From positions 1 through 64,000 of the forward strand of contig DASPIL010000079.1 in the NCBI GenBank assembly GCA_035629175.1: a DNA stretch of 64,000 nt. Direction: 5' to 3'. The notes below the pieces were generated by a model. That model was not told the origin of the DNA. It saw nothing but the letters and a program-made list of their open reading frames with translations, and did no database searches. The first letter of the stretch is position 1. The number at the start of each line of letters is the position of its first letter. Made by a program: the position numbers and the translations under genes. Below, piece after piece: positions 33,270-35,281 of this stretch. Source of the stretch: Verrucomicrobiia bacterium (lineage in GTDB: Bacteria > Verrucomicrobiota > Verrucomicrobiia > Limisphaerales > DASXHY01).

Positions 33270-35081
33270 TCAGCTGTGAATCACCAACTGAATGTTCTCA
33301 GGAAGATGTCGAGCGACTTCGGTGACCACATCGCCTTGAAGCAGCTTCGCAAGCGCCGTCCGGTGCGGCGCGCCCAACATCAACACGTCGATGCCGAGGG
33401 TCGCGGCGAGATCGATGATGGTTGCAGCAGGATCATCACTGACCGTGTAAAGCGGGATGACCGGCACGCCGGACTGCTGGCTGAGTTCAAGGACGCCGGT
33501 CATGATGCGTGCGGCGATGGGATCGTTTTGCCATCGTGGGCGCTCCTGCGATTGGGGCGATCCAGGCAGAGATACTGCAAGTTGCTTCACGTACAGCACG
33601 TAAAGATTTCCTTCCCGGTATTTGGCTTCTTCGAGTGCGAACTTCAGCACAGGGGTCAACCCGCGCGCAGCGACGAGAATCGCCTGACCTTTGGAAAAAT
33701 CCGGCCGGAAAGCCGCAAGGGTTTCCGGGCTGACGGCGGCGGCAACTTCCTTGGTTACTGTGATCGTCTCAAGTCCCGCCCTGCGCTGGGCATAGGCTCG
33801 AAGGCTCAAACCCGCAATGAGAATGCAAACCACGAAGAACAGCGCATTGGGTTTGGTCTTGGCAATCGTCAACTCCACTGCGAAAAGGATCAGGAACGTC
33901 ATTACCATGGCACCGCGTTCATACCAGCGCAGGTTAAGCCGACGGTTCACGACGCAGGATCCCACGTTCACGCCGATGGCGCCGACGACGCCGATCGCAT
34001 ACAACTCCATCAATGACACCTGATTGGGCGAAATGATGAGGACAATGACGGGCAATGCGGTCGCGATGACCACTGGCCAGACGGGCATTCCGTGGGCATT
34101 CAGCTTCCCGAATTGCCGGGGCATTTCACCGTCGCGCGTCAGCAGGTAAAGCAGGCCGATGAGCGCGCCGATGGCGGTGTTCACCGCGCTCAGGAGGAGC
34201 AGTCCAACGACCATGCTGATACCAAGCCCGAACCAGCGCCCTCCTTCAGTTCCCAGCACCAGGGTGCCGTAGTATTCCGCAAGCACTGTGAGCATTTCAT
34301 CCCATCGATCCAGCAACGCCGTCTTCAGGTCCGGTGAAATGGAAAGCATCGCCCACCCGAGAAGAATCGTCACAAAAACCACTTCGCAGGCGACCACAAA
34401 GATGGCGCGCCGCGACGTCTGCGCCACTGAGGGAGCCTCCGGCGAACTGCCGGGATCGAGTTTCATCACGCCTGTGAGGTTGGCAACGGCTTCAATGCCG
34501 CTGAGGGCGAGGATGACTCCGACGAAGCCGATCCAATTTGCCGAGAACGTTTGGTGCGGCGCTTCCAGGTGAACGGTTGAGAGGTGGGGAATGCTAAAAC
34601 AGGCGATCAGTGTGACTCCAATAACCATCGGGATTGCCAGCCAAACGGCGAGGCTGCCGGAGTGCTTGGGTCCAAAAACATTCAGCAGGCCGACTGACAA
34701 GGTGACCAGGACAGCGCTGAGCGCCACGAACTCTCGTGGAACGCGAAAATAAACCATGGCCGCCCACGCGCTCAGGGAGGCTGTCACTGTAAAATTGGCA
34801 ACGAGCAGGAGGGCGCCGATCACCCCAAGCACGCGGCTTTGCGATCGCGCAGACGAGTACACGCCGCCTCCTTCGGGAAAGGACCTGCAAATGATGACGT
34901 AAATATAACCAACCAGTCCGGTGAGGAGGCTCACCGCAATGATGTGCGGCAGCGAAGCATAGACGAGCGCGAAAAACGCGGCGCCGATGACATACGCCTT
35001 GCTGGAGCCCCAATCCCCGTAGAGCAACGCAGCCGCCCTGATCCACCCGACATTCCGCGGACGATGAGAACCAATTTCCAT
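33270..35081 (-). CDS. APC-superfamily transporter with C-terminal UspA-like domain, KimA-like
   Basis: Probably a potassium or amino-acid transporter in the inner membrane. 603 residues, close to KimA (YdaO) of Bacillus at about 607. Residues 1-430 form about 12 TM helices with APC features: LYGDWGSSKAY in helix 1, ICRSFPEGGGVYSSA, LSGIEAVANLTG and LLSAVNTAIGALIGLLYLLTRDGEMPR. Residues about 460-603 form a universal-stress-like nucleotide-binding domain (ILVAARG, VLYVKQLAV, DVLMLGAPHRTALAKLLQGDVVTEVARH). Its 5' leader contains a ydaO-type c-di-AMP riboswitch, which strongly supports a potassium/osmotic role. Confidence 0.85.
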   Translation of the reverse strand: MEIGSHRPRNVGWIRAAALLYGDWGSSKAYVIGAAFFALVYASLPHIIAVSLLTGLVGYIYVIICRSFPEGGGVYSSARSQSRVLGVIGALLLVANFTVTASLSAWAAMVYFRVPREFVALSAVLVTLSVGLLNVFGPKHSGSLAVWLAIPMVIGVTLIACFSIPHLSTVHLEAPHQTFSANWIGFVGVILALSGIEAVANLTGVMKLDPGSSPEAPSVAQTSRRAIFVVACEVVFVTILLGWAMLSISPDLKTALLDRWDEMLTVLAEYYGTLVLGTEGGRWFGLGISMVVGLLLLSAVNTAIGALIGLLYLLTRDGEMPRQFGKLNAHGMPVWPVVIATALPVIVLIISPNQVSLMELYAIGVVGAIGVNVGSCVVNRRLNLRWYERGAMVMTFLILFAVELTIAKTKPNALFFVVCILIAGLSLRAYAQRRAGLETITVTKEVAAAVSPETLAAFRPDFSKGQAILVAARGLTPVLKFALEEAKYREGNLYVLYVKQLAVSLPGSPQSQERPRWQNDPIAARIMTGVLELSQQSGVPVIPLYTVSDDPAATIIDLAATLGIDVLMLGAPHRTALAKLLQGDVVTEVARHLPENIQLVIHS

Positions 35082-35140
35082 ATAAGTACAGCATTCACCG
35101 GCAGAGCCGGCTTCGAGGGTAATGGAAACGCTCCATCGCC

Positions 35141-35281
35141 CTTAATGTTCGCGCTGACGAGGTTAGCTGTCGGGCTGGAACCATTAAGTGTTCCCGATAT
35201 CCGTATCGTTAGCCCCGATCCGTCCGCCTAGGCGAACGGAATGTCTGGGTCCCCCGCTGGCTGCACGTCGCAGCCATTAAG
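35141..35281 (-). ncRNA. ydaO/yuaA-type c-di-AMP riboswitch aptamer
   Basis: The minus-strand leader of the KimA-like gene contains the hallmark 3' segment CCGACAGCTAACCTCG followed by TCAGCG (35150-35174). The 5' segment is GCAGCCAGCGGGGGACCCA (35247-35265). The closing helix is perfect: CTTAATG at 35275-35281 pairs with CATTAAG at 35141-35147. About 140 bases is the usual aptamer size. The 59 bases to the ATG contain a CCGGC/GCCGG hairpin (35098-35110) but no T run, so control may be translational. The ydaO class binds c-di-AMP and usually turns expression off. Confidence 0.88.

Follow-up and report, generated by a model that had tools for sequence, protein, structure and literature searches.

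A c-di-AMP riboswitch in front of a Usp-tailed, KimA/Kup-like transporter gene and its probable role in repressing K+ import in a Verrucomicrobiia bacterium

In the DNA analyzed here, a stretch of 64,000 nucleotides from a Verrucomicrobiia bacterium (hereafter, the window), the leader of a transporter gene carries a c-di-AMP riboswitch that probably represses a KimA/KUP-like importer of K+ (probably K+/H+) at high K+. A probability of about 0.78 is assigned to this reading as a whole. It is practically certain that the leader element is a genuine c-di-AMP riboswitch aptamer, and there is high confidence that this aptamer controls the transporter gene downstream. The role of c-di-AMP as the OFF signal is strongly favored, and the 603-aa product is, judged from its sequence, probably a K+ importer. 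That the bacterium turns K+ uptake down with c-di-AMP is very likely.

Table 1. Positions of the leader elements and the transporter gene in the window
Feature	Position	Strand	Basis or remark
c-di-AMP (ydaO/yuaA) riboswitch aptamer, RF00379	35136..35293	-	cmscan 49.2 bits; single genome copy
Pseudoknot 5' arm CUUAAUG, in hairpin loop	35182..35188	-	complements 35147-35141; co-varies in 87 leaders
Pseudoknot 3' arm CAUUAAG	35141..35147	-	last two nt overlap foot of next hairpin
P8 hairpin AGGG-C-GAUGGA/UCCAUU-A-CCCU	35116..35142	-	-12.1 kcal/mol; layout as in relatives
Start codon and first codons, putative anti-start partner	35059..35081	-	pairs 20 bp with 35141-35122
603-aa transporter, APC/KimA-like core and C-terminal Usp domain	33270..35081	-	ORF; Pfam; KimA profile match

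The RF00379 covariance match, obtained by cmscan on the 64-kb window, spans the full model (1-134) and is significant: it scores 49.2 bits, above the gathering threshold of 38 bits, at an E-value of 2.1e-8. It is the only match in the 5.4-Mb genome, and its 3' end lies 54 nt from the transporter's ATG at 35081. Two conserved short segments pointed out in a preliminary description of this DNA were both located in the core of the leader, GCTAACCTCG at 35167-35158 and GGGGGACCCA at 35255-35246. The perfectly paired closing helix reported there was overstated: P1 in the covariance alignment has only four pairs, one of which is U-G (35283-35280 with 35155-35152). The range given at that time, 33270-35281, ends too early on the upstream side, where the aptamer begins 12 nt further upstream. 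RNA-level control of this kind had also been considered less well described in this phylum, but Verrucomicrobia are among the several phyla for which c-di-AMP riboswitches before K+ transporter genes had already been predicted (PMC6488665, introduction). Consequently, the RNA is an additional, ordinary member of a known riboswitch class.

The strongest evidence for any helix in the leader concerns a 7-bp pseudoknot between a hairpin loop and the 3' tail, which was absent from the earlier account. The two arms are exact complements in the window leader. Among the aptamers of related genomes (91, of which 87 are distinct), arms paired with their own partners score a mean of 15.8, compared with 12.5 (s.d. 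0.26) for swapped partners, and the best of 300 partner swaps reached 13.2. Complementarity is retained with other letters in the relatives, for example, UUUAAUG/CAUUAAA and CAGUUCAUG/CGUGAAUUG. Partner swapping leaves the kinship among the leaders in place; nevertheless, because the arm letters differ between groups, the pseudoknot is taken as established on comparative grounds.

Directly 3' of the pseudoknot and outside the Rfam model, 76 related leaders share a conserved helix in which GGGYGAUC and GRUCNCCC enclose a small hairpin. In a position-specific test on these 76 leaders, the right arm scored 14.1, whereas shuffles gave 10.4 ± 0.34 and foreign arms 10.8 ± 0.34. No signal for a common 3' helix emerged from a cruder test by duplex energy, and leaders without the GATC arm show weak covariation and contribute little to the right-arm score. 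By this comparison, the conserved 3' helix appears moderately supported. In the window, 17 of 1000 shuffles are as stable as the P8 hairpin, whose left foot starts inside the 3' arm of the pseudoknot, so that 2 nt are common to both.

An alternative to P8 is a predicted duplex of -26.4 kcal/mol between 35141-35122 and the beginning of the coding sequence. Known from the window sequence alone, this anti-start duplex was equaled by 9/3000 and 6/3000 shuffles (15/6000 together, which makes it stronger than 99.7%) and by none of 1067 other window segments. A separate, putative pairing, between the relatives' conserved GGTCTCCC strand and the aptamer core GGGGGACC, was seen by eye in several leaders; its match in the window is poor.

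In the mechanism proposed here, c-di-AMP made by a CdaA-type cyclase, the gene for which was found, would bind the aptamer and lock the pseudoknot, as membership in RF00379 implies. The locked pseudoknot would take two nucleotides from the foot of P8; because the two structures share them, the ligand should weaken P8 and release the anti-start strand. The right arm of P8, thus freed, would pair with the start codon, and translation of the importer would fall. When c-di-AMP is lacking, P8 would form and the start codon would stay open.

The balance leans slightly towards such a translational platform. A serious contender, which falls somewhat short of even odds, is that the riboswitch is real but transcriptional, acting through premature termination (possibly Rho-dependent) in the manner of B. 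subtilis ydaO/kimA, with the start-codon pairing being incidental. Termination is how the known ydaO/kimA switches act (PMC9960051, PMC6488665), but a scan of the minus strand from 35293 to 35081 revealed no terminator-like site and no intrinsic terminator of the B. subtilis ydaO type between aptamer and gene. The anti-start pairing draws no support from the relatives, yet few shuffles match it. When the leader was folded with and without aptamer constraints, no switch appeared at the start codon: the thermodynamic model prefers the anti-start helix in the bound-like state as well as in the free one. Consequently, a translational switch would need to operate kinetically. For a c-di-AMP riboswitch acting on translation, C. 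glutamicum provides a precedent (PMC9960051).

The reading frame downstream had been called a transporter gene, and it is real. Pfam assigns AA_permease_2 to residues 12-402 of its product (E 6e-21) and Usp to residues 477-594 (E 2e-11). The UspA-like nature of the soluble tail, suspected earlier, is supported both by Pfam and by the family-profile PDB matches for the tail, which are solved USPs. At the sequence level, these matches set it apart from a PPAT-like cytosolic c-di-AMP-binding domain. Since the cytosolic domain of KimA is described as PPAT-like (PMC6994465, PMC10284832), the Usp tail counts as a difference and not as part of the KimA likeness.

The preliminary description also proposed that c-di-AMP could act on both RNA and protein. 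The RF00379 match supports the RNA half, and known motifs do not support the protein half. A double lock, in which c-di-AMP (or ATP) would also bind the Usp tail and gate the transporter, can be entertained only tentatively. It has a model in KimA, which is inhibited by c-di-AMP on its cytosolic domain, and the contact residue Arg337 aligns with R322 (EMPR) of the window protein (PMC10284832). Furthermore, G570 is invariant in the transporter family, as is the first Gly in KdpD USP domains (PMC8214093). However, the ATP-binding USP motif, the Walker A sequence G-X2-G-X9-G-(S/T), is broken in the tail (G570, H573, G583, D584): its first Gly (G570) is kept, but the second Gly (H573) and the Ser/Thr (D584) are lost. 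The KdpD c-di-AMP motif (A/G/C)XSXSX2N(Y/F) is absent, with the tail segment reading AARGLTPVLKF (both motifs as defined in PMC8214093). AlphaFold2, run with the window protein and one relative only, gave a pLDDT of 34.5 and therefore no usable fold model.

KimA-likeness of the transporter, another earlier suggestion, finds support in a profile search and in the retention of K+/H+ residues. When a 24-member family profile was compared with 177635 PDB sequences, the best match was B. subtilis KimA (6s3k, E 5.1e-16) and the second a lysine-specific permease (E 1.4e-4); phmmer with the single protein gave no PDB match at 1e-3. Six K+/H+ residues of KimA (D36, Y43, T121, S125, E233, and Y377) are identical in the window protein (D23, Y30, T100, S104, E197, and Y361) and invariant in the 24 relatives. 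The profile alignment places TM3 ADxTVTxxxS on D117/T121/S125, TM6 LSGVEA on T230/E233, and LYAIGV on Y377. T230 of KimA is replaced by S194, and D117 by Asn96, a position held by Asp in most relatives; KimA D117 variants still transport (PMC6994465). The roles of the KimA residues are those given in PMC6994465 and PMC10284832. Comparison by hhalign of the family with 17 verrucomicrobial KimA-type proteins gave a probability of 98.6 (E 5.8e-15), and with 17 Kup proteins 90.7 (E 1.5e-7). The same method aligns D23 and Y30 in TM1 with D36 and Y43, and YGDWGSSKAY with Kup FGDIGTSPLY; the HMMER alignment edge in TM1 is off by a few residues, which is regarded as an edge effect. The only named relative is from a Verrucomicrobia MAG, with 43% identity.

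The genome also encodes a putative source of the ligand. A single diadenylate cyclase (PF02457, 137.6 bits) of 303 aa carries a CdaA_N membrane domain, which supplies the cyclase gene that the earlier interpretation called for. It lies beside what we take to be a folP-like gene and is followed by a frame that presumably corresponds to the usual YbbR-type partner. No PgpH-type phosphodiesterase domain turned up in the genome. Pfam searches for Kup (K_trans), TrkH/KtrB, and KdpA, which had positive controls in other genomes, gave no match in this genome, whose completeness of 96% leaves room for a K+ system in the missing part. Because K_trans, TrkH, and KdpA are lacking at this completeness, the data suggest that the riboswitch-controlled transporter is the main K+ importer of the host.

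The same absence speaks against a substrate other than K+, namely an amino acid or another cation, with c-di-AMP control forming part of a wider osmolyte control. This reading, which is considered unlikely, draws on the Pfam label of amino acid permease and on the lysine-specific permease as the second PDB match. However, KimA is by far the better match and its K+/H+ residues are retained, and the Pfam name does not discriminate, since canonical KimA-type homologues likewise score only as AA_permease_2. A decayed aptamer or an ON switch is a very improbable reading. Among the scores of the relatives, 49.2 bits falls in the lower half, but the model match is complete and the core and the covarying pseudoknot are intact.

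Aptamers of this class are carried by 88/196 genomes of the order. Transporter homologues occur in 90/286 genomes of the class and in 89/196 of the order, a count that takes in some weak, partial matches, several of them to the Usp part only. In the 196 genomes, 11 aptamers lie 70-119 nt upstream of a member of the transporter family on the same strand, where about 0.001 would be expected, and further aptamers precede this family outside the 11 (L039, L108-L115, and L121). The window transporter belongs to an orthologue group with 50-65% identity, in which 29 members were scanned (L028-L056) and an aptamer precedes the gene in L039 alone. A second orthologue group, at 42-46% identity, is usually preceded by aptamers, and the window aptamer is nearest to these over its full length (83-87%). 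A possible explanation for this mismatch between aptamer and transporter groups is leader exchange between paralogues.

The remaining verrucomicrobial aptamers precede Kup, KimA-type, TrkH/KtrB, KdpA, and SPFH/Band_7 genes, which is largely the expected regulon; since adjacency to this transporter was one of the grounds on which the set of aptamer neighbors was assembled, its proportions are not those of a random sample. SPFH/Band_7 (flotillin-like) genes follow aptamers at L010, L011, L021, L022, L024, L069, L075, L084, L098, L099, L118, L122, and L125, with the assignment confirmed by Pfam for L021, L084, and L118. At L026 (4212-5624, minus strand) and L080, an aptamer stands before a gene for a BBP2-type outer-membrane porin, and at L026 the porin gene is followed on that strand by a transporter of the window's family. 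Aptamers at L003 and L004 precede a Na/H-exchanger-type gene and a gene that, from its appearance, we take to be citrate synthase-like. Other RNA matches were a fluoride riboswitch (L112, 6485-6564, minus strand) and an Acido-Lenti-1 sRNA (L040, 1242-1287, minus strand). In the window itself, P-II (glnB-type) and ammonium transporter genes come after the transporter (33025-31228, minus strand), probably as a separate unit because a terminator-like hairpin (33149-33131) lies between the transporter and P-II genes.

These results give a functional label, based on regulon membership and active-site residues, to a subfamily that databases name amino acid permease. The riboswitch is common in one order, and this transporter subfamily stands under it in about 20 genomes; in the window genome, it may be the sole importer of K+. 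Less is known about the transporter subfamily and the conserved 3' helix than about the RNA. A Usp-tailed KimA/Kup-like transporter under a riboswitch is a variant for which no description was found in the literature searched, and the subfamily looks uncharacterized. The translational mechanism offered is testable and has one precedent. A more far-reaching picture, in which verrucomicrobial Usp-tailed K+ importers between Kup and KimA would form the host's main K+ route under a translational pseudoknot-versus-hairpin riboswitch near the start codon, is put forward as a speculative proposal, with the odds rather against it.

Compared with the B. subtilis ydaO/kimA leader, the window leader has the whole RF00379 model, the core segments, the pseudoknot, and the place before a K+-importer-like gene in common. 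In contrast, it has no detected terminator-like platform, and leaders of this phylum have an additional conserved helix after the pseudoknot. The C. glutamicum nlpC c-di-AMP riboswitch (PMC9960051) is similar in having no canonical terminator and in that control is inferred at translation. However, nlpC encodes a cell-wall peptidase and not a K+-importer-like protein, and the window pairing would involve the start codon instead of a Shine-Dalgarno site. With Kup/KUP (K_trans, PF02705), the transporter shares the TM1 signature, YGDWGTSKAY aligning column for column with (V/I)(F/Y)GDIGTSPLY in hhalign, whereas the PF02705 model gives no match to the window protein and the tail differs. KimA (B. 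subtilis YdaO; 6s3k, 8b70) differs in TM1, which is Kup-like in the window protein (YGDWGSSKAY), and in its PPAT-like tail in place of Pfam Usp, but it shares the APC-type core, most K+/H+ residues, the length of about 600 aa, a C-terminal soluble domain, and an upstream c-di-AMP riboswitch.
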